Virus record (IMG/VR): IMGVR_UViG_3300033145_002238
Location: 1-20,053 of that record
DNA from: a virus
Strand: one strand, 5' to 3'
DNA: 20,053 nucleotides
In this document: positions 2,524-19,218 of the stretch, one piece after another
Position numbering within the stretch: the stretch's first letter is position 1
Layout of the letters: each line of letters begins with the position of its first letter
Position numbers and translations under genes: made by a program
The notes under the pieces: generated by a model
Database searches by the model: none
What the model was told of the DNA's origin: nothing
The model's input: the letters and a program-made list of their open reading frames with translations, nothing else

Positions 2524-4989
2524 TTGTATCAACGTATCCAACAGTTTTCAACAACTGAAACAGTCCATGGTAAGGGCGTTGTCTCAGAGTTCTCCCGCTC
2601 CATTAGTGATCTTGGTAGTGGCCTCGGTAAGCATGTCTCAGTAGAGATGCCAGTAACTGATACAGGGCTTGGTTCAAGCCTCATAGCTGAACGTTCACTC
2701 CAGATACTCGATCAAGGTACCCCCTTAGAGAAAGGTCTTGTAGAGGCCTATAGTATTGTTTCCGATACAGGGCTTGGAGATGACAAGCTCTTATCCATCG
2801 AGCTCCCCGTTTCAGAGCTAGGCCTAGGTACCGAACTAGTCTATGAGCGGAGCCTACAAACCATAGAACTAGGCTATGGTTCTGAGGCCAGGCTTTCGCC
2901 TATACCGATCTCAACGTCTGACCTTGTGAGCGCCAAGGACATTATAGGTAAACGTGATATCCGAGTACTAATGGATACAGGGCTTGGATCAGAACTATCA
3001 TACTTTGGATTACTTGTTTCTGATACAGGGCTAGGTACTGAGTTAGCGCACCAAGATAGAATGGTTGCTGATACAGGGCTTGGCGGTGAGGTAAGGCTTT
3101 CGCCTATAACTAAGGCTACTAGTGATCAAGGCTTAGGTATTGATAAATCCTTGTTCAACTTATGGGAGGTACTATTACAAGATACAAGCTATGGTGAAGG
3201 CATAGTCTCTAAAAAAGAATCGGGTACCAGCGATATTGGTTCATCGCTTGATACTTGCGCTGTGGAGAAACTGGTTAGCGACCAAGGCTCCAGTGTAGAG
3301 CAGATAATAGAGCAAGACAAGGGTGTGATCGATACAGGGCTTGGTAGTGAGGAAAGAGTATCACCTAAACCTATAATCACGGTTGAACTGAGCTTAGGTT
3401 ATAGTAAGGCTTGGCACTCGTATAGAGAAGACTTTAGACGAGACGATAGCGTAGGAGAAGACTTCATAAGCATTCTTGAAAGAATATTGCCAGATACTTC
3501 AACTGGTACTAGCACTTCGCTTGTAGGTATACCTACTGGTGACCTTGGTAGTGGTCTAGAAGTAATAATCGTGAGAGATTTAACCGAACAAGACCTTGGT
3601 AGTGGTATCGAGGTCAGATTATCACCCATCCCGTTAACTAGAGTAGACACAGGCTTTGGATCAGAGTATGTTATATCTGACAAAAACACTATTATAAGCG
3701 ATAAAGGCTTGGGATCATCTATATCTACACTACTAATGCGTATACCATGGCTAGGCCAAGGGATTAGTTCAACCACTAGCACGGCTAGACACTATGGAGT
3801 ATACGTTATTTCAAGGACGCATAAGACTAGCCTACAAGCCTCATCAACGATCAGAGGCATTACCGTAGCCACTGCAACGCTTAAACACCCTATCAGTATC
3901 AATTATCTGAGTAGTATCACGGGTAAGACGAGTTTCATAACATTAATCAAGGCATTGGTTTCGAGTAGTACATCATTCTCCATATTGTCTGACACCTATG
4001 CTTCAAGCATTTTGAAGCAAAGCATAAATGCATTGACTTCCTCGGCTACTATGTCAAGACAAGTATCACTCATAGACATTGTTGAGAAAATTAGAATTGA
4101 TAAGAACTTAACTACACTAGCCAACCGAGTATTAACTAAACAACTCTACAATATACTAGTATATGGTTTTAGCCGTGACTTGGTGAGCTCTACTGTGTTA
4201 ACCACACACTTGAAAGAGAGAGTCATGGCTGATAAAGCTTTAGGCACTAGATCTGGTATACTATATGCGTCATTAAATGAGGTCTTATACCTATCATTAA
4301 ATCGCATGTTAAGTGGTGTGAAAACTGGTTGGAGTATAATCAGTGAAGAAGAGCTAGTACATGGTATTAGTTTAATGCTTGGTGCATACAAGTATAAGTC
4401 CGCTAGATTAGAGAAAGAGATTCTCAGCGCCCTACTCACAATATCACATGAGACCAAGAATATACCAGTTGTAAGAGAACTCGAGCTAAAGCTAGGTCTA
4501 GTATACGGTAAACTACATGAAACTCACCTTTCTGCCACGCTCCATGAAATAATCTTATATAACTATAAGTTGAGCCTAGCAGTAGGAGTATTGTTTGTAG
4601 AGCTAGTAAACACGTTATACGAGTTCGTGCAGAGAGGCATAAGGCTTTCTACAACTGTCTTCAAGTTCCTCTACGAGCTAGAGAAAATCACTACTAGGTT
4701 CAGGTATGTTAGTGAGGGAGAACCTGTAAAGCACCAAGACCACAACGTGTTCGTTGACTTCTGTAACATGTTCCTAAACTTTGCTTCGCAACTTGTAAAC
4801 GAGATTTTCCCGTTTGACGAGGAGGTTAAGTCAAAGCTACAAGAGCTAGGCGATGTGATTAGCAAGTTGGAGAGAGTCTATGCTTTACAAGTAGTGCTCC
4901 CAGAACACCATAACAGCGTTGTAGACGCATTGTTGAAGATAAGGGAGTTCCTAGTCTTGATAAGAAGGAAAGTAGGATTAGAGACGTAA
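2524..4989 (+). CDS. Giant repeat protein with DTGLG repeats, fibre-like (821 aa)
   Basis: The first possible start is TTG at 2524, because an in-frame TGA lies at 2518-2520. A later ATG (2647) is the only alternative close by. Residues about 29-415 contain some 20 copies of a short unit, spaced roughly 16-22 residues, with consensus D-(T/L/Q)-G-L-G-(S/T)-E followed by a hydrophobic strand. On top of this there is a longer repeat marked by RLSPIP-like segments near residues 122, 190, 278 and 365. Residues 420-620 are Ser/Thr-rich and continue a degenerate strand pattern. Residues about 640-821 are helical and charged, and end in a coiled-coil-like region. There is no signal peptide and no catalytic motif. 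Inferred: an extended beta-repeat stalk or fibre with a helical anchoring end, carried on the virion or at the host surface. Confidence 0.85.
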   Translation: MYQRIQQFSTTETVHGKGVVSEFSRSISDLGSGLGKHVSVEMPVTDTGLGSSLIAERSLQILDQGTPLEKGLVEAYSIVSDTGLGDDKLLSIELPVSELGLGTELVYERSLQTIELGYGSEARLSPIPISTSDLVSAKDIIGKRDIRVLMDTGLGSELSYFGLLVSDTGLGTELAHQDRMVADTGLGGEVRLSPITKATSDQGLGIDKSLFNLWEVLLQDTSYGEGIVSKKESGTSDIGSSLDTCAVEKLVSDQGSSVEQIIEQDKGVIDTGLGSEERVSPKPIITVELSLGYSKAWHSYREDFRRDDSVGEDFISILERILPDTSTGTSTSLVGIPTGDLGSGLEVIIVRDLTEQDLGSGIEVRLSPIPLTRVDTGFGSEYVISDKNTIISDKGLGSSISTLLMRIPWLGQGISSTTSTARHYGVYVISRTHKTSLQASSTIRGITVATATLKHPISINYLSSITGKTSFITLIKALVSSSTSFSILSDTYASSILKQSINALTSSATMSRQVSLIDIVEKIRIDKNLTTLANRVLTKQLYNILVYGFSRDLVSSTVLTTHLKERVMADKALGTRSGILYASLNEVLYLSLNRMLSGVKTGWSIISEEELVHGISLMLGAYKYKSARLEKEILSALLTISHETKNIPVVRELELKLGLVYGKLHETHLSATLHEIILYNYKLSLAVGVLFVELVNTLYEFVQRGIRLSTTVFKFLYELEKITTRFRYVSEGEPVKHQDHNVFVDFCNMFLNFASQLVNEIFPFDEEVKSKLQELGDVISKLERVYALQVVLPEHHNSVVDALLKIREFLVLIRRKVGLET
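2608..3768 (+). repeat. DTGLG-type protein repeats in the 821-aa gene
   Basis: The DNA 14-mer GATACAGGGCTTGG occurs at least five times (near 2658, 2763, 2973, 3071 and 3331), plus a one-base variant near 3023. The repeat is evident both in protein and in DNA, so at least some copies are recent or are kept alike by recombination. Spacing is irregular and there is no spacer logic, so this is not a CRISPR array. Confidence 0.85.
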
Positions 4990-7211: not shown

Positions 7212-8342
7212 TTAAGTAGTGTCCTCGACGACTACATTATACAGCATCTTGGCTACGATATCCCACCTGTATTCTTTCTTAAGTTTCTTCTCCCTCCATT
7301 CAAGTACCCTAGCCTTATAGTCATCTAGGTTATCTAAGATGTGGTGGAGTTTGTTCAAGGCATCCTCTACATCAATGGCATAGCCATAACCAACATGTAG
7401 AGCATTGTTTGGTAGAGGCCGTACTCTCTTCCCCTTCTTGATCCACAAGAATGGTGGTACGTAATCAGTCCATGAGCCATGTTCACACGCAACGCATGGA
7501 ACTCCCCTGACTAGTGATTCTAAGCATACGCACTCGAAGCCTCCGCCTCTTGAGAAGTTTAGTGTTATGTCTACTAGGTCGTAGAGAGCCATCTTCTCGT
7601 AGTCGTTGAGCCATCCGTAGATATTGATCGCGTCATACTGTATCAGCTGTTGGTACTCAATGGGGTTGGGAACCCCAGTCTTCAGGATTATTGCTACGTC
7701 CCTCCTCTCATGGCTTAGCCGTGTATAGACCTCGTAGACCTCGGGCCATCCCTTACGCTCTCCCGAATGCCATAGCCAGAACAAGATGATCTTCTTGTTC
7801 TTCTTAATCTTGTACAAGTATATTTGTAGAAGCAACGGGTTAATTGATTTAACAGGCATGGACTCCCAGACATTAGGCGTAGTGTACCATTCGGGGTCCA
7901 CTCCGTGGGGAACACGGTAGACCTTAGCCTTGAAGCCACTACGCTTTGCTACTTCCACGCAATAAGATGATGGTACAATGAATTTATCGTATCTGTTAGC
8001 CAGTTCGATTGCAATATCTGAGTATTGATCTGAGTCACACACATCGACGCCTATTAGTTCGTCGTAGTTACTCCTCCACCACTTATAGTAGTCTTCTCTG
8101 AAGCGACCATATGTATCGACCTTTGTTTTAAGTATCTTGTGCATTATGAAGAATGCTGGATGTACTATAGCCTTGTATCTCGTTACAGGCGTGAATGATG
8201 GGAAGTATAATTCGTCTACCTCGTAGATCTGGAGGTTGAACACCTTTCTCATGTACTCGATGTGCTTACGAGCAACAAGAGTGAAGCTAACGGTATGCCA
8301 CTTCGGATAGCTATACAAAATGTTTAGTGATGTTGTTGACAT
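7212..8342 (-). CDS. Glycosyltransferase, GT-B / GT4-like (376 aa)
   Basis: ATG at 8342 is preferred to the in-frame GTG four codons earlier, because GGGTGA (8350-8355) then lies about 8 bases upstream. The protein has a GT-B layout. The N-terminal half ends in a VPHGVDPEWY segment (about residues 148-157). The C-terminal domain starts with an IILFWLWHSGERKGW strand-loop carrying the RKG nucleotide-sugar loop (about 190-205). It then has IYGWLNDYEKMALYDLVDITL and the acceptor/donor loop SRGGGFECVCLESLVRGVPCV (about 265-286). In the classical EX7E motif the first Glu is replaced by Gly and a Glu sits three positions later (GGGFE-x4-E). Known: GT4-type enzymes transfer nucleotide-sugar-activated sugars. 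Inferred: it modifies virion or host surface proteins. It lies between structural genes and is cytoplasmic, with no signal or membrane segment. Confidence 0.85.
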   Translation of the reverse strand: MSTTSLNILYSYPKWHTVSFTLVARKHIEYMRKVFNLQIYEVDELYFPSFTPVTRYKAIVHPAFFIMHKILKTKVDTYGRFREDYYKWWRSNYDELIGVDVCDSDQYSDIAIELANRYDKFIVPSSYCVEVAKRSGFKAKVYRVPHGVDPEWYTTPNVWESMPVKSINPLLLQIYLYKIKKNKKIILFWLWHSGERKGWPEVYEVYTRLSHERRDVAIILKTGVPNPIEYQQLIQYDAINIYGWLNDYEKMALYDLVDITLNFSRGGGFECVCLESLVRGVPCVACEHGSWTDYVPPFLWIKKGKRVRPLPNNALHVGYGYAIDVEDALNKLHHILDNLDDYKARVLEWREKKLKKEYRWDIVAKMLYNVVVEDTT

Positions 8343-8363
8343 AGGTGTCTTCACCCATCCACT

Positions 8364-10995: not shown

Positions 10996-13900
10996 CTACT
11001 TAGGCCCGTATATCTTCTGAGTAGTCAATCTATTTAATTCCGCACCATCCATTATTAATTCTATTTCTGCGTCACTCAATCCATACGCTTTGAGTCTCTC
11101 AAGCCTCTGCCTCAATTGCTCCTTCGTTATAACGCCATTAGCGTAGGCATAGACCAATTGACTCCTATACCATGATACTTGCCTCCAAACCATTCTATTC
11201 CTTATGAGCTTCCTGTAATAGTCTATCTGCTTCTGATACTTCTGTACATCAATGCCTCTGGCTTTTAGTAGGTCTCTGAATAGTTGCTCCCATTCAGGTA
11301 TGTATCTAGCGTCACTAGCGAATTGGCGTATAGTAGGTATCATGTACTGCATTATGCGGTAGTCTTTGCGTAGGTCTAGCTCTATCTTGAACATCATTAG
11401 TTCTTCCTTAGTCCATCCACCCTTCATCATTAATTCTTCTATTCTCCTGGCTACTTCTTGTGGTACGAAGAAGTACTCGTATATCCTCCTGTACACGTTT
11501 ACTACCGCGTTCACTTCTGACGCTATCATTCTGGCATAGATGTACCTCAACCATAGCTCGGCGAAGGTCTTCTCTACCCTCCTAAGCTCTAGTACTTTCT
11601 TGATGTAGTCCATGGGCACCTCTATGTACTCGGCCATAGAGGCCAGGGTTCCAAGTGTTGGAATGTACTCGATCATTCCCTCAATCTGCTCTGCAAGTAG
11701 GCGGATGTTGATTTCTGCCTCAGTAATACCAACCTTGTCCAAGAACTCTTTGATTCTTCTCTCAATGTCCTCGGGTATCGCTACTCCTCTAGCCTTAGCT
11801 TTTACATATGAGTACATCAGCGCCCTAGCATCGTCTGCTAGAGGTCTTACTTGGATGTATTGTAGCCATATCGGTTGCCACTCCTTCGGAACCCTGCGGG
11901 CCTCGAACACCTTGTTGATGAGATCGACTGGGATCGTTACGTACTCAGCCATCGTAGCCAACATGCTTGGAGTCGGTATGTACTCCCTAGCCTCAGCAAT
12001 TGCAACCTCTAGCTCTGCTCGTTCTCTGATTATCTGGACCTCCAACTCAGTGAATCCATACTCCAACGCTCTGTTCATGTACTGCTTCCACTGGTCCTCA
12101 GTTATGACGCCATAGCGTAGTGCTCTGATCGCTGATGAGAGCAGAGCCTTGTAGTCGCTCTTGATAGGCTTGACTTGTATGTACCTCAGCCACAGAGGTC
12201 TCCATTCCTCAGGCACATGCCTGGCCTCGAACACCTTCTGGATGTACTCCATCGGAATGACCATGTATTCAGCGAGTGTTCCCAGCATCGATGGAGTCGG
12301 TATGTACTCCCTAGACTCCTCGATTAGGATCTCTAGTTGTGTTGCTATGTCCCTAAGCTCCTTCTCCTTATCCGTAACGTTGAACTCGACGAAGTATGCA
12401 TGTATCTTCTTCTCCAGATCATGCGGTATGGCGATTTTATACCTCTTCGCTCTGTAGTACGCATTGAACAGCGCTCTGAAGTCGTCAACTAGTGGTCTTA
12501 GCTCTATGTATTTCTTCCAGAACTGGCGCAGTTCCTCTGGTATCTTCCTAACCACGAACGATTTCTCGATTATCTCTTGTGGTATGGTCATGTACTCAGC
12601 TAGGGTCGCTAGCTGTGATGGTGTTGGATAGTACTCCCTCTTGACAATGCCTGATATGACGTCCGTTAGGCTCAAGAAGAACTCTTCCTCGTCCTCGTGG
12701 ACGTAGATCACTTGCTTAAGTGCATCGATGACCTTCTTAGCATCATCCCTAGTTACGTAGCCATAAGCAATGCGGTAGAAGAGCCACGACGATAGCCTGT
12801 ACCACCAATACCTGATACGCTCCCTGACCTCTATGATCTGAGCTGTTTCGAGGAGCTGTAGCCTAATGTTCTCGTACTCCTCATCGAACGTTATGTGCAT
12901 CTCTTGACCTGTTATCGCCTTGGTGAGTGCACTGTAGTGCTTATCAATGATGCTGATCGCGTTCTTGAGCCTAGCCATAGCATCCTTGGCCGTTATCGCC
13001 AAGGTCCTAACTCCTGAGGATACATACTTCTCGAACTCTCGGTAGAGATCCATAATTCTGTCGATAGCCATCCTGAGCTGTAGCAACCTGCGTTCATGCG
13101 GTAGCCATCTTACAGGTAGGTTTATCCATCCAGTCTTCCACTCCTTGGTCTCGGTATCCCAGTATCCTACCTGATATGATGCTACTAGAAGACCTGAAAG
13201 GTATTCCTCGACTTTAGTTACGTTTAGCAATCCTTCCTTGAAGAGGTTTAGCCATCCAGTCCTTAGTAATGTCATCTCGTCCGATATAGCCATAATATTC
13301 TCTGCCACCGTGACAATTGGTACCCATGCTGGATGAAGGCCCGTGGCTTGGATTAGCTTGGAGAACCACTTTAGATCTACTTGTACAGGTGACTTTGGTG
13401 TATTTTCAAGTAGGCTAGGTATAGCCTTAACTAATGGTGTATATGATTCGTATCTAATTCCTGTATTCTGGAATTTCTCAGCCATGTAGAGGAAGATACC
13501 GTATCGTGACATCCAACGCATATCGATCTTCGAAGGTATGTCTGCTGCAACATCAGCCATGATCCAGCTGTCGGCTGTCCACCCACCGAGCTTGTCATAG
13601 ATTTCTCTACCGATCGGTATTCCATACATTGTTGTCTTGGGAGTGAACCATGAGAAGTTGGAGTACTCTAGCCACTTGAAGTAAGTGTTAAGTGCTAGTT
13701 CGAGGGCCTTTAATTGATCACCTGTCTTTATATTGTTTTGTATATCTAGTGGTGATAGCGGTTCTCCAGCACCGACTTCCTGGGCCTCTTTAGTGAATAA
13801 TTGTTTGATTGGCTCTGGTGGGCTGAACCACAGCATACCCGCCGTTGATCTCATGTAGAACTTCCATAGTTTATCGAATGATGGATACTTGAATGTCATT

Positions 13901-16686
13901 AAATAGCTCATAACCGTTATGTCTGGGCTCCATCCACGTAGACTTGCTACGGCCTTCATGATTCTTACGCTTGGGAAGACGTCTCTTTGTGTCATTCTTA
14001 GCATTTCTGAGTGAGTTGGTAACTCATAGTATGGTGCTAGTGGTACGTATCTCTCTTTACCGAATCTGTCAATGAACTTCATGTAGAAGTCCTTATCTTC
14101 TACTAGATATACTTCTAGTAACTTGTTAGGTAATCCGTAGACCTTGAATATGTTGGCCACGTATTGCTTAGCATCATCCCAGCTCATGTATGGTTTGTAC
14201 TCTATGCCCTCTATTCTCTCCATTAAGAGCTTTCCAGGTAACGCCCTACGTAGGAACTTCAATAGCTCTGATATCGTAGGTAACTCGAAGAATGCATCTA
14301 CTCCTAGTGTTGACTGGAAGAATGGTGTGAAGAAGTTCTTTGCTACAGGCCTTACAACGTATTTGAATGGATCAAGTGTTGCCAATGCTAGTCCTAAAGT
14401 GAATCCTTCTAAGACGGCCTTGCTTATGTCCTTGCCTAGTGTTCCTAGCCATTTAATCAGCTTACCTAGGTGCAACTTGATTCTTCCACCGAGGCCTACA
14501 CCAAGTGGTTTTCCGCTGAACTCGCTCTCGATCTCCTTTATCATCTCAGAGTTCTCGTCTATGAAGTAGAACGGCGCTAGGAATGACAATAGGTGCGGGA
14601 ACATCCTTAAGGGTATGGCGAGTAGTATCCAAAACTCCCCCTTACCGCCCGTACTTTTAATGGCTTCAGTTAAGACACCACCAATGGTCTTCCCTATAAC
14701 GTTTAGTAGTGTCTCTGATACAGGTTTAATGAATGTGTTGTATACCCAGTCTAGTGCTCCTTTAACAGCGTTGTATACTGCTTCTGCGAATCCCTTAACA
14801 GCGTCAAATAATGTTTTGGCTACGCCTTGTAAGGCGTTCCATATCCATTTGCCCAGATCTACGATTCTATCCCAGAGCCATTGTAGCCCCTCAATTATTT
14901 TACCGCCTAGCCATTGCAGTCCAGCGATCAACGGTTCTATGAAGTTCTTTTGTAGCCAGTTCCATGGATCCTTTATGAGTCCTTGCAAGGACTCCCATAC
15001 GGCTTTGAAGAAGTTTCCTATAGCTGACAATGCGTTGGCTATGCCTTGGAAGAATTCCTTGAATTTCTCGTAGAGCATCTCGGGTAATTTAATGATGGCG
15101 TTAATGAAGCCTGTTAAATATGATCCAACTAGGTATAGGTTCTTGGATACTTGGTCTAGTATTTGAGCGAACTTGTTGAAGCCATCGGCGATCTTCGAGC
15201 CTAGGTCTGTGATGTAGTCCCAGATGGTCATACCTGCAACTTTCAATGCTTCAAAGGCTTTCTGCGGTAGCTCTACGAGTTGCTGTGCTACACCTTGTAT
15301 ATACTGTGGTAGTTGTTTAGTGAAGAAGTCGGCTAGGTAACTTAGCGCATTGTTCAACCACTCGTATAGTCCTTGAAACGCCTCCGTGATAGGTGTTACT
15401 ATGTTTTCTTGTATCCACTCCCATGCTTGTCCTAGCAGTTGCTGTATTGTTTGTGGTATTTGACTAAGCCATTGTGGTAGGGTCTCCGTGAAGAATGTTC
15501 CTAGTGCATTGAGTCCTTGGTTAACCATGTCTATTAGGCTTTGGAATGCTTGTGATAATGGTGTTACCAGGTTAGCTTGTATCCACTCCCATGCACTTGC
15601 TAGTGCGTTTTGTATAGCTTGAGCTATGGATGATATCTGTTGTGGTAGTTGCCTCGTAAAGAAGTCTACTAGCGTGTTTAAGCCTTGATTAATCCAGTCT
15701 ACGAGCATTTGAAATGTTTGAGTCAACGGCGTTACTATGTTTTGCTGGATCCAATCCCATATCCCGCTTAAAGCGTCTTGTATCATCTGCGGTATTTGTC
15801 CCAACCATTGTGGTAGTTGTTCTGTAAAGAAGTTTACTAATGTGTTTATTCCCTGGCTTACCCAGTCAACTAGTTGTTGGAAAGCTTGTGATAGAGGCGA
15901 TATAATGTTCTGCTGTATCCAGTCCCATACCCCTCCTATTGCTTCATGTATCATTGAAGGCAATTGTGCTAGATAACTTGGTAGGTCCTCTGTGATAAAC
16001 TTTGTAACAGTTGATACAGCCTGGCTTATCCACTCGCTTAGTTGTTGGAAAGCACTAGTTAATGGATCAACTATGTATTGTTGTATCCAATCCCATGCCC
16101 CTTGTACTGCCTCTTGTATCATTGATGGTATCTGTGATATATACGATGGAAGTGTTTCCGTGAAGAACTGTGTTACCGTCTCTATACCGCTTGAAACCAT
16201 GTCTATGAAGCTCTCTAAAGCCGATGATAACGGGTCAACTATGTTTTCCTGTATCCAGTCCCATATACCGCTTAACTGTTCCTCGACCCAGCTTATGAGG
16301 TCTAATACCGTTCCAGGTACTTGTTGGATATAGCTCCATATGTTGTCTACGACAGTTCTAATACCGTCTATGATCGGCTTCATTATTGATTCCCATATTG
16401 TGTTGAAGACCGCCTCCATGGCACTGGCGAACCAAGACGCTAGTTCCTGCATTCTATCATACAGCCATTGCTGTAATTGACCGATAGGATCCATTAGACC
16501 GTGTAACGAGGTCGCTAGTGCATCTAAGTCTAATTCGTCTATGCTAATCTTCGTAACACTAGCTTCCGCTACAGCGTCTATTGCTAAATCAACGCCATTG
16601 CTGTTGTTAAATGACTCGTTTAATGAGTCTATAAGGCTCATTAAATATGATGCGTCCTCGGGCGTGAAATACTCTAGTCTTTGCAC
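10996..16686 (-). CDS. Giant virion protein with two repeat families, tape-measure/scaffold-like (1896 aa)
   Basis: GTG at 16686 follows GGGAGAG by about 5 bases. Residues 1-140 are helical. Residues 142-478 hold six 56-residue repeats starting WDWIQ or WEWIQ (at 142, 198, 254, 310, 366 and 422), each with a NIVxPL segment, an FFTExLPQW segment and an IPQxIQ helix. Residues 480-680 continue as degenerate Trp/Gly-rich amphipathic helices. A hydrophobic stretch lies near 685-708 and a less repetitive domain covers about 720-1480. The C-terminal 430 residues have repeats of about 108 residues led by EYIPTPSxLATxAEY, with four good copies and a degenerate fifth. Trp-spaced amphipathic repeats of this kind occur in phage tape-measure proteins. 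Tailed spindle viruses also encode very large proteins. The function in tail length, packing or membrane contact is inferred. Confidence 0.85.
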   Translation of the reverse strand: MQRLEYFTPEDASYLMSLIDSLNESFNNSNGVDLAIDAVAEASVTKISIDELDLDALATSLHGLMDPIGQLQQWLYDRMQELASWFASAMEAVFNTIWESIMKPIIDGIRTVVDNIWSYIQQVPGTVLDLISWVEEQLSGIWDWIQENIVDPLSSALESFIDMVSSGIETVTQFFTETLPSYISQIPSMIQEAVQGAWDWIQQYIVDPLTSAFQQLSEWISQAVSTVTKFITEDLPSYLAQLPSMIHEAIGGVWDWIQQNIISPLSQAFQQLVDWVSQGINTLVNFFTEQLPQWLGQIPQMIQDALSGIWDWIQQNIVTPLTQTFQMLVDWINQGLNTLVDFFTRQLPQQISSIAQAIQNALASAWEWIQANLVTPLSQAFQSLIDMVNQGLNALGTFFTETLPQWLSQIPQTIQQLLGQAWEWIQENIVTPITEAFQGLYEWLNNALSYLADFFTKQLPQYIQGVAQQLVELPQKAFEALKVAGMTIWDYITDLGSKIADGFNKFAQILDQVSKNLYLVGSYLTGFINAIIKLPEMLYEKFKEFFQGIANALSAIGNFFKAVWESLQGLIKDPWNWLQKNFIEPLIAGLQWLGGKIIEGLQWLWDRIVDLGKWIWNALQGVAKTLFDAVKGFAEAVYNAVKGALDWVYNTFIKPVSETLLNVIGKTIGGVLTEAIKSTGGKGEFWILLAIPLRMFPHLLSFLAPFYFIDENSEMIKEIESEFSGKPLGVGLGGRIKLHLGKLIKWLGTLGKDISKAVLEGFTLGLALATLDPFKYVVRPVAKNFFTPFFQSTLGVDAFFELPTISELLKFLRRALPGKLLMERIEGIEYKPYMSWDDAKQYVANIFKVYGLPNKLLEVYLVEDKDFYMKFIDRFGKERYVPLAPYYELPTHSEMLRMTQRDVFPSVRIMKAVASLRGWSPDITVMSYLMTFKYPSFDKLWKFYMRSTAGMLWFSPPEPIKQLFTKEAQEVGAGEPLSPLDIQNNIKTGDQLKALELALNTYFKWLEYSNFSWFTPKTTMYGIPIGREIYDKLGGWTADSWIMADVAADIPSKIDMRWMSRYGIFLYMAEKFQNTGIRYESYTPLVKAIPSLLENTPKSPVQVDLKWFSKLIQATGLHPAWVPIVTVAENIMAISDEMTLLRTGWLNLFKEGLLNVTKVEEYLSGLLVASYQVGYWDTETKEWKTGWINLPVRWLPHERRLLQLRMAIDRIMDLYREFEKYVSSGVRTLAITAKDAMARLKNAISIIDKHYSALTKAITGQEMHITFDEEYENIRLQLLETAQIIEVRERIRYWWYRLSSWLFYRIAYGYVTRDDAKKVIDALKQVIYVHEDEEEFFLSLTDVISGIVKREYYPTPSQLATLAEYMTIPQEIIEKSFVVRKIPEELRQFWKKYIELRPLVDDFRALFNAYYRAKRYKIAIPHDLEKKIHAYFVEFNVTDKEKELRDIATQLEILIEESREYIPTPSMLGTLAEYMVIPMEYIQKVFEARHVPEEWRPLWLRYIQVKPIKSDYKALLSSAIRALRYGVITEDQWKQYMNRALEYGFTELEVQIIRERAELEVAIAEAREYIPTPSMLATMAEYVTIPVDLINKVFEARRVPKEWQPIWLQYIQVRPLADDARALMYSYVKAKARGVAIPEDIERRIKEFLDKVGITEAEINIRLLAEQIEGMIEYIPTLGTLASMAEYIEVPMDYIKKVLELRRVEKTFAELWLRYIYARMIASEVNAVVNVYRRIYEYFFVPQEVARRIEELMMKGGWTKEELMMFKIELDLRKDYRIMQYMIPTIRQFASDARYIPEWEQLFRDLLKARGIDVQKYQKQIDYYRKLIRNRMVWRQVSWYRSQLVYAYANGVITKEQLRQRLERLKAYGLSDAEIELIMDGAELNRLTTQKIYGPK
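11330..12640 (-). repeat. Coding repeats of about 108 residues (EYIPTPS family)
   Basis: The EYxPTPSxLATxAEY signature is found on the minus strand near 12635, 12310, 11985 and 11670, spaced 315-325 bases. Each unit continues with an ARRVPEEW-x4-LRYIQVRP segment and a helix pair that includes a G-V/I-x-T/P-E/D hinge. A fifth unit further down (to about 11000) keeps only the helix pair. Copies differ at many positions, so this is old protein-level repetition. Confidence 0.8.
15253..16263 (-). repeat. Six coding repeats of 56 residues (WDWIQ family)
   Basis: The unit is 168 bases. The Trp of each copy falls at residues 142, 198, 254, 310, 366 and 422 with no insertions between them. The exact conservation of length contrasts with moderate residue change, which suggests that length or register is under selection. 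Confidence 0.85.
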
Positions 16687-17001: not shown

Positions 17002-17279
17002 CTGCTCATCCTAGACTTGATTAACTTGTGAAGTTGCCATGTCGCTCGCACAACGTTTTTAGCACTATCTATTAGTTCTTTCAGCTCTGGATGCTTTTCT
17101 ATTAACTCGTTCGGGAGAAGTGCTACTGCATAGCTTAGTTCCTGTGCTGACATTATCAAGTTGTTCATTGTATCAAGGAACTTGCGTTGCTCGGGCGTTA
17201 GTTCTTGTTGTGTTGGGGCTTGATCGGGTACAAGCTCGGTTTCTTGTTTGGTTGATGATTTCCTAGACTTGGAGGGCAA
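16998..17279 (-). CDS. Helical accessory protein (93 aa)
   Basis: TTG at 17279 is chosen because GGTGGTGA (17285-17292) lies exactly five bases upstream, the same arrangement as in the 178-aa gene; longer starts at 17294 (TTG) or 17288-17291 (GTG) would put the ribosome site inside the gene. Residues 1-30 are Lys/Ser/Gln/Pro-rich and probably disordered. Residues 32-93 form two or three helices (QRKFLDTMNNLIMSAQELSYA and ELIDSAKNVVRATWQLHKLIK). Its start lies inside the end of the glycosyltransferase gene (overlap about 17 bases), and its stop overlaps the next start. Function unknown. The size and fold resemble small chaperones or assembly factors placed ahead of phage tape-measure genes, a comparison from gene order only. 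Confidence 0.7.
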   Translation of the reverse strand: MPSKSRKSSTKQETELVPDQAPTQQELTPEQRKFLDTMNNLIMSAQELSYAVALLPNELIEKHPELKELIDSAKNVVRATWQLHKLIKSRMSR

Positions 17280-18306
17280 GGTCTTCACCACCAATTATGG
17301 ATGACTTCACGAAGTATTTATATGTTTTCTCGACGTCAAACTCTTTCGCTCTTTCAATGCAACGCGCTTTATAGTCACTACGGTTCTTGAGGACTTCATC
17401 TTTTGCTTGAATGATTGCGTCGGCGAAGTCGTTTGGGTCATAGAAGTGTAACTCGTACTCTATTGCTCCGAACTCACGCTTATATGAGACGTCTATTACA
17501 GGGACTCTAAATGATGTCTTAGGCGTTGTTATCTCACTCAATGGGTTATAGTCAGCGTGGACGACAGGTTTCCCTGCAGCTAAAGCTTCTACTATAGGGA
17601 GTGCATAACCTTCTGATAGAGATGCTTGAGCATATAGGTCGAAGGTGTGGTAGAGACCATAAACCATGTCTTGAGAGAGCTTTCCGAATTCAGGGATCAG
17701 TATGACGTTATCTACTTCGTTGTAGTGTGAAGCTCCCTTCCTATCTGTTAGGATCACGAACTTGATACTTGGATCCTTTTCTTTAACGATTTTGCATACC
17801 TCAGCGAACACGTCGTGACCCTTACGCATATAGCCTCCTGCAATGTATCCGACTACGAAGTCGTTTTGAGATAAACCTAGCTTCTCTCTAATCGCTTTAG
17901 CCCTCCACTTAAACGCCTTAAACGCATCAACTCTAATGCCATGGTAGACTACTGCATCTACACGAGCAGTGTACTTTGAGTTGGCTATAAATGATAGATC
18001 CCTGTAGATCCATTGATCACCATGTATCCTCTTGATCCTCCCCTCGGTCGTCGTGTAGAAGAATACTTTTTTGCCTCTATTCTTCAATGCTCTAGCCAAG
18101 TACATGTATGGTAGAACCCATGCTGGGTCAAAGGTCATCACGATTATGGCTGTATCAACTTCTTTATAGGTTGATGGATCAGCGTCTGCTGATAGAATGA
18201 GTTTCACGTTATGTATACCGTTTTTGTTGAAAACATACTTGATGTCGTTGGCTACTCTTTGGAGAGAAACAGATCTATCCGAGGTTACGACTACAACGTT
18301 TCTCAT
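17263..18306 (-). CDS. Glycosyltransferase family 4-like (347 aa)
   Basis: ATG at 18306 follows a weak AGGG. The protein is a GT-B glycosyltransferase. The N-terminal domain (1-135) has a VVVVTSDRS strand-loop and YHGIRVDAFK near 121-130. The C-terminal Rossmann domain begins FVVGYIAGGYMRKGHDVF (150-167) with the RKG donor-phosphate loop. It continues through FVILTDRKG and carries a complete EX7E motif with Glu232 and Glu240 in SEGYALPIVEALAAGKPVV. Known: GT4 enzymes are retaining transferases that use nucleotide sugars. Inferred: sugar transfer to virion or cell-surface proteins. It lies between the capsid-like genes and the tape-measure-like module. The hairpin/T-run terminator of the capsid unit ends about 35 bases before its start, so it probably needs read-through or its own promoter. 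Confidence 0.9.
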   Translation of the reverse strand: MRNVVVVTSDRSVSLQRVANDIKYVFNKNGIHNVKLILSADADPSTYKEVDTAIIVMTFDPAWVLPYMYLARALKNRGKKVFFYTTTEGRIKRIHGDQWIYRDLSFIANSKYTARVDAVVYHGIRVDAFKAFKWRAKAIREKLGLSQNDFVVGYIAGGYMRKGHDVFAEVCKIVKEKDPSIKFVILTDRKGASHYNEVDNVILIPEFGKLSQDMVYGLYHTFDLYAQASLSEGYALPIVEALAAGKPVVHADYNPLSEITTPKTSFRVPVIDVSYKREFGAIEYELHFYDPNDFADAIIQAKDEVLKNRSDYKARCIERAKEFDVEKTYKYFVKSSIIGGEDLALQV

Positions 18307-18420: not shown

Positions 18421-18795
18421 TTAGTATGGAGGCACCATACCTATAACAGCTTCAATTATTCTATCAAGTATAGCTGGATCAGCCTTATAGGCTGTAATGA
18501 AGTATTGTTTCTCAGCTGATACCTCCTTCTCTAGCGTTAAGCCCTTATGGCTGAATGACAGCTTCGCTATCCTTTCAGCAAATGAAATGTACATAGCCCA
18601 TAGACCACTGGGTACACCTTCATCGCTAAGTATGTCTCTTACAGTCTCAACTACATTGTATATTACGCTGGAAGCAGCCTCATAGCGACCGTCCATTAAG
18701 TCCTTGACCGCGTTTAACCTATTAGTTACGTTGGTGCCATCGTACTTCAGATCATATTTCTTGTGCATGTCATCTAATCTTTTAACTATAGGCAT
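18421..18795 (-). CDS. Capsid-like protein, four-helix type, paralogue 1 (124 aa)
   Basis: ATG at 18795 has a very strong ribosome site, GGAGGGGGGTGA, about 7 bases upstream, fitting high expression. The protein is mostly helical. It shares with its upstream neighbour the MPIVK start, AVKxL, RY, VRDIL, VP, SHxG and ADPAxLDxI. The last segment, ADPAILDRIIEAVIG, is followed by a short MVPPY tail. From memory, small helical coat proteins of about 120-140 residues with a C-terminal ADP/CDPxxLDxI segment occur in tailed spindle-shaped archaeal viruses (ATV/ATSV/STSV group). Two adjacent paralogues suggest a major and a minor coat protein. Other archaeal viruses with helical coat proteins (rod-shaped or filamentous ones) are the alternative. 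It is last in its unit, before a hairpin terminator. Confidence 0.75.
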   Translation of the reverse strand: MPIVKRLDDMHKKYDLKYDGTNVTNRLNAVKDLMDGRYEAASSVIYNVVETVRDILSDEGVPSGLWAMYISFAERIAKLSFSHKGLTLEKEVSAEKQYFITAYKADPAILDRIIEAVIGMVPPY

Positions 18796-18835
18796 ACGTG
18801 TTCACCCCCCTCCTATCACCTTTAACCTATGATGA

Positions 18836-18915
18836 GGTTTGCTATTTTATCGAGAACAGCAGGGTCGGCACCCTTGGTTTGCTATTTTATCGAGAACAGC
18901 AGGGTCGGCACCCTT
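18836..18915. repeat. Perfect 40-bp tandem duplication in a capsid-like gene
   Basis: Positions 18836-18875 and 18876-18915 are identical. The unit begins GGTTTGCTATTTTATCG and ends GGCACCCTT. Forty is not a multiple of three, so it changes the reading frame at the 3' end of the gene. It is either a recent mutation or an artefact of assembly or amplification. Confidence 0.95.
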
Positions 18916-19218
18916 TCCTACAAATCTCTGTTTGAGTCCCTCGGCGATCGCTTCTAGTTCAGCTCCGCTGTGGGATAGTGCTTTCTTTGTTAGTTGGAAT
19001 GCGAAGGCGAAGTAGATACCATGTATTGCAGCAGGTACCGCTTCTCTTTCAAGTATGTCTCTTACACGCTCTCTTACAGCATAGAATATGCCTGCTCCCT
19101 CAATATACCTGTTGGTTGCTAGTGTCTTTACCGCACCATAGCGTGTACCTGTTTGATCGGCTGGCGTTTTTGCGCTAAACTTTTGCACTCGATCAGTTAG
19201 AGTCTTAACTATAGGCAT
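18847..19218 (-). CDS. Capsid-like protein, paralogue 2, C-terminus altered by duplication (123 aa)
   Basis: ATG at 19218 starts MPIVK, as in paralogue 1, and the two align over their whole length (AVKTL, RY, VRDIL, VP, SHSG, GADPAVLDKIAN). The last nine residues (QGCRPCCSR) do not fit: a perfect 40-bp tandem duplication (18836-18915) shifts the frame there. With one copy removed, the frame continues AN-LIIG and stops at 18822-18824, giving 118 residues and matching the paralogue's IIEAVIG. Three Cys in the altered tail are unusual for this protein. The body is helical with Ala-rich segments, as expected for a coat protein. A weak AGGGT precedes the start. First gene of the capsid unit, about 50 bases before paralogue 1. 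Confidence 0.75.
   Translation of the reverse strand: MPIVKTLTDRVQKFSAKTPADQTGTRYGAVKTLATNRYIEGAGIFYAVRERVRDILEREAVPAAIHGIYFAFAFQLTKKALSHSGAELEAIAEGLKQRFVGKGADPAVLDKIANQGCRPCCSR

Follow-up and report, generated by a model that had tools for sequence, protein, structure and literature searches.

Does the perfect 40-bp tandem duplication near the right end of this 20,053-bp virus record (the whole stretch analysed, hereafter the window, which contains zero N) reflect a mutation of the virus or a slip of the assembly, and what does it do to the coat protein whose gene it interrupts?

The coat protein genes of the window

Two genes in tandem on the minus strand were recognised as coat protein genes: MCP1 (18847..19218, 123 aa), a rudivirus-type major coat protein paralogue with an altered C-terminus, and MCP2 (18421..18795, 124 aa), a second, intact paralogue that reaches up to 81% identity to its relatives. 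The first-pass annotation had called MCP1 the second paralogue, which does not fit the transcription order, where it lies upstream of MCP2. Both proteins scored above the cut-off of Pfam family PF12193 (Sulf_coat_C), with E-values of 1.5e-6 for MCP1 and 7e-13 for MCP2, and profile searches with either one matched the solved coat proteins of SSRV1 (6wq0) and SIRV2 (3j9x). Across the coat proteins of the window and its relatives, sequence-profile and fold matches comprised 6wq0, 3j9x, and 3fbz, and a Foldseek search with the predicted structure of one single-copy relative (L012) returned the coat proteins of SSRV1, SIRV2, and AFV1 as the closest PDB entries (probability 1.00, E 1e-3 to 1e-2). 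The capsid-like identity originally given to the gene is borne out by the Pfam match, the coat protein profiles, and nine relatives: MCP1 and MCP2 are a pair of paralogous major coat proteins from a Tokiviricetes-type archaeal virus.

The Pfam, profile, and fold matches place an alpha-helical MCP with the SIRV2/AFV1 fold, the mark of Tokiviricetes (Adnaviria), in the window. Viruses of this class are further characterised by linear dsDNA packed in A-form inside a filamentous or rod-shaped virion. Known Tokiviricetes MCPs (Rudiviridae: SIRV2, SSRV1; Lipothrixviridae: AFV1, SFV1) share with it the helical-bundle coat fold and Sulf_coat_C, and a duplicated and frameshifted end is found in the window's MCP1 alone. 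The single MCP of rudiviruses is the nearest by sequence, although Rudiviridae are marked by one MCP forming homodimers, whereas the window and its relatives carry tandem MCP paralogues. Lipothrixviruses, which are marked by a lipid envelope and an MCP heterodimer, have two paralogous MCPs in tandem, as does the window, the sequence of which is however closer to the rudivirus MCP (judged from the genes alone). The virus is thus an archaeal, thread-like, and unclassified one of Tokiviricetes type. By description, and not by sequence comparison, it also resembles the ANME-1 dual-MCP rod-shaped viruses of hydrothermal sites (proposed Ahmunviridae, PMC9894754), which have two divergent rod-virus MCPs per genome; those viruses infect ANME-1, while the window's relatives sit in Desulfurococcales and Thermoprotei MAGs.

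The duplication and the reading frames

The duplication at the 3' end of MCP1 was recovered as first described. Two repeat finders agreed on a perfect family with a 40-bp unit, 2.0 copies, and 100% identity (18836-18875 and 18876-18915), and inspection of the flanks (...GATGA on the left, TCCTA... on the right) showed that the match does not extend either way. The pair is the sole perfect tandem repeat of such kind in the window, and a degenerate pattern for its 13 encoded residues matched the two copies only and nothing in 100 shuffles, so that the pair is not a chance match. No perfect tandem repeat with a unit of at least 20 bp was found in 654 kb from 72 IMG/VR loci that had been drawn by an unrelated DNA pattern, and no second repeat like the 40-bp pair was found in 179 kb of the window and its relatives. 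Perfect tandem repeats as long as this one are seldom seen.

Reading both frames unaltered, without editing the sequence, settled the frame question. The first copy in gene order (18876..18915, minus strand) lies in the conserved frame and encodes KGADPAVLDKIAN, residues that the relatives also carry. As 40 is not divisible by 3, the second, identical copy (18836..18875, minus strand) is read in another frame, giving QGCRPCCSR and a stop at 18847-18849, while its other frame still encodes KGADPAVLDKIAN. The frame-0 product is therefore a 123-aa ORF that ends in IANQGCRPCCSR and a stop, with KGADPAVLDKIAN followed by QGCRPCCSR (...DKIAN-QGCRPCCSR). The next frame (frame 1) runs to TKGADPAVLDKIANLIIG (...KIANLIIG) with a stop at 18822-18824, and the displaced conserved ending, LIIG and its stop (18822..18835, minus strand), now lies out of frame. 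Residues 1-114 of MCP1 are unchanged, whereas nine new residues (QGCRPCCSR) stand in place of the terminal LIIG, the four residues that close the final coat-protein helix. Both the frameshift and the stop at 18822 in the restored frame thus read exactly as had been claimed. The lost ending can indeed be read out of frame, but MCP2, which had served as its comparator, ends in AVIGMVPPY and is a poorer one than the orthologous MCP1 ending of the relatives, IANLIVG. The MCP1 stop now lies 51 nt from the start of MCP2, as against 26, and the G-rich stretch ahead of MCP2 was intact on inspection.

Ribosomal recoding was considered, as the +1 frame can be read through to the conserved ending from a point a little before the second copy; yet no known slippery motif was seen by eye and no relative needs recoding, and the idea was rejected as speculative.

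Single-copy relatives and the age of the duplication

Relatives were sought with MCP1 in IMG/VR, with MCP2, and among 84,980 species genomes of archaea and bacteria. This yielded nine distinct relatives, namely L002, L003, L004, L009, L010, and L089 from IMG/VR, and three from MAGs: L011 (Thermoprotei, scaffold 'Guay16'), L012 (Desulfurococcales AUK150, a 28-kb contig), and L013 (labelled Thermotogae, scaffold 'Guay15'). The MAG members show that contigs of this virus group sit within public MAGs, which suggests thermophilic archaeal hosts, with the viral contigs either binned with those MAGs or contaminating them. The MCP2 query gave no matches as a single protein and four as an alignment, the phage collection contained neither a DNA match nor an MCP1 protein match, and 229 genomes of one class contained only distant relatives beyond those already known.

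All nine relatives have a single copy at the MCP1 site. Their MCP1 endings were IANLIVG (L002, L004, L011, L012), MILGEVIS (L003, L013), ANLVVG or ANLVV (L009, L010), and SKLIVGG (L089), each followed by a stop, and the conserved ending aligns with NIILG of SSRV1. The ancestral ending, LIVG or a close variant, accordingly goes with a single copy, as had been proposed. A single copy in all nine shows the duplication to be derived and, among the visible records, from which near-identical sibling records may have escaped, private to the window; an exact 40-mer scan of IMG/VR, from which the window itself and its closest records may be missing, found no match. The first-pass annotation had looked to related genomes with one copy as a check on the duplication itself: all nine do carry one copy, which shows the derived state, but at protein identities to the window of 76% or less they do not show the duplication to be false.

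The single-copy relatives also bear on the suggestion of a phase-variable coat protein, in which reversible changes in 40-bp copy number would switch MCP1 between the hydrophobic ending and a Cys-rich tail. Perfect tandem repeats can contract, and with a unit that is not a multiple of 3 the gain or loss of one unit would switch the frame. Against this, there are just two copies, the site has no repeat in any of the nine relatives, a second allele was not seen (none of the nine is a same-species strain), and no such mechanism is known in these viruses. Phase variation, for which I found no positive evidence, is thus highly improbable, and its fuller version, a natural on/off switch whose contraction and re-expansion would alternate the two endings and give mixed virions, is even harder to credit.

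Comparison of MCP1 between the window and its relatives gave a pS of 0.68-0.81 (silent sites near saturation) and a pN of 0.17-0.18, and this low pN against a high pS indicates that MCP1 evolved under purifying selection. The two 40-bp copies show no divergence and the codons of the displaced LIIG remain intact; on the silent-site scale the duplication would therefore be either very young or not real. Window genes with relatives in the fetched loci (from ~8364 rightwards, the part that could be compared) each match in one open frame. That part of the record is therefore not generally error-ridden, and its intact genes likewise leave a duplication that is very recent or not real.

Mutation or assembly artefact

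The duplication comes down to either an ordinary mutation or a slip of the assembly. On the evidence at hand, a recent, private, and near-neutral or mildly damaging mutation is somewhat favoured. A very recent 40-bp tandem duplication would have arisen at the 3' end of MCP1 in the sampled lineage, and the 40 extra bases would shift the frame so that the second copy is translated in the wrong frame and supplies the stop. The variant may be tolerated, or just mildly harmful, because so little of MCP1 changes, and would have reached the sample consensus. Here I infer an origin by template slippage or end-joining, support from the reads, and a working altered protein.

The perfect repeat, the nine single-copy relatives, the clean comparable genes, the place of the break at the very end of the gene, the predicted retention of the fold in the rest of MCP1, and the lack of any duplication of at least 20 bp in the 654 kb of other loci were taken as points for a real mutation. 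A perfect 12-bp tandem duplication in L003 (7333-7356), at the 3' end of another small gene and in frame (...SRGSTRGSS and a stop), was counted on the same side as a frame-keeping counterpart of the event in the window. Against it, purifying selection on a major coat gene should make frameshifts there rare, and the site lies ~1.1 kb from the contig end.

The main alternative, that two contig ends sharing 40 bp were joined with the overlap left in twice or that an amplification chimera was formed, leaving a single-copy virus with a normal MCP1, is a serious contender, if the less probable of the two. An artefact would account for the identical copies, a junction without microhomology, the broken frame in a major coat gene, the one copy in all nine relatives, and the nearness of the contig end, and assemblies are known to suffer from false duplications where contigs meet (PMC8081667). 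Such homotype duplications resemble the window in that an exact stretch could come from overlapping ends joined uncollapsed, yet they are about a read length in size and come from vertebrate long-read assemblies, whereas the window has 40 bp and no visible gap. The join without N or other damage, the intact state of the other comparable genes, and the zero comparable duplications among the other IMG/VR loci argue against an artefact. So does the position of the break: the last five codons of an ORF hold only ~1.5% of coding bases, which is how often random placement would put a break there, and it is at the very end of a gene that a frameshift is least damaging. This positional argument is a weak one, since surviving mutations and benign-looking artefacts share such a position.

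If the mutation is real, slippage or end-joining during replication is its likely origin. In vitro, archaeal PolB and PolD slip when a template bears a hairpin and short direct repeats (PMC4134008), which offers a way for archaeal replicative polymerases to misalign; the reported events, however, are deletions whose ends are short direct repeats on either side of a hairpin, while the inferred single-copy site of the window has neither direct repeats nor a significant hairpin. No microhomology was present at the duplication junction. Two small stems (AGGGT/ACCCT and AACCT/AGGTT) lie near the unit ends, but the fold of the site was no better than that of shuffles (z -0.75), and hairpin-driven slippage was rejected on this ground. 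Both features would favour slippage, and their absence counts against the mutation.

Predicted effect on the coat protein

AlphaFold2 models were compared for L012 and the window's MCP1, with mean pLDDT values of 74.5 and 70.4, respectively, i.e. moderate confidence for both. In L012, the final bundle helix includes residues 106-117, with a pLDDT of 83 for the last block, while the window's MCP1 has a helix at 106-116 followed by a low-confidence tail (pLDDT 66, then 42). This difference at the helix end is suggestive only, and the remainder of the fold is predicted to be kept. The new C-terminus might have a slight effect or might impair assembly, two outcomes between which the models cannot tell.

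In one subclade (L003, 5001-5372; L013, 4134-4505), MCP1 has a natural C-terminal extension on the scale of five residues (MILGEVIS), and the region past the last helix thus varies between lineages. This natural extension lends something to the notion of an adaptive tail in the window, for example one that cross-links subunits via its three cysteines or contacts the next helical turn, as do reports that the C-terminal extension of SFV1 VP5 touches the neighbouring helical turn (PMC6105669) and that dual-MCP rod-shaped viruses may use one copy only (PMC9894754). The tail of the window, however, arose in one step by out-of-frame reading, is absent from every other record found, and replaces a conserved hydrophobic helix end with residues predicted at low confidence (pLDDT ~42 at the end). 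Nothing indicates selection for it, and adaptation is a most unlikely explanation.

As it stands, the locus is a caution that a metagenomic contig may carry a single exact duplication and so present a misleading new coat protein ending, which relatives expose at once. Should reads confirm the favoured mutation, it would show that, in a natural virus, one MCP of a paralogous pair can change in its terminal residues, with a mild bearing on the need for both paralogues in such virions.

Other genes and repeats in the window

Two glycosyltransferase-like genes of the Glycos_transf_1 family were found on the minus strand (17263-18306 and 7212-8354). The former is the next gene downstream of the two coat genes, a position that it shares with its counterparts in 8/9 relatives, the contig of L013 ending too soon to tell. 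An 821-aa ORF without a Pfam match (2524-4989, plus strand) contains many short DTGLGSE-like repeats at a spacing of 48-51 nt or multiples thereof. Lastly, a 1896-aa ORF (10996-16686, minus strand), the C-terminal part of which matches phrog_7334, contains 56-aa (168-bp) repeats with the pattern WDWIQxNIVxPL..., arrayed at ~15355-16264, with at least six at a regular 56-residue spacing. The motif occurs 7 times in the window, 3 times in L005, and twice each in L004 and L012, and the array seems to differ between relatives.
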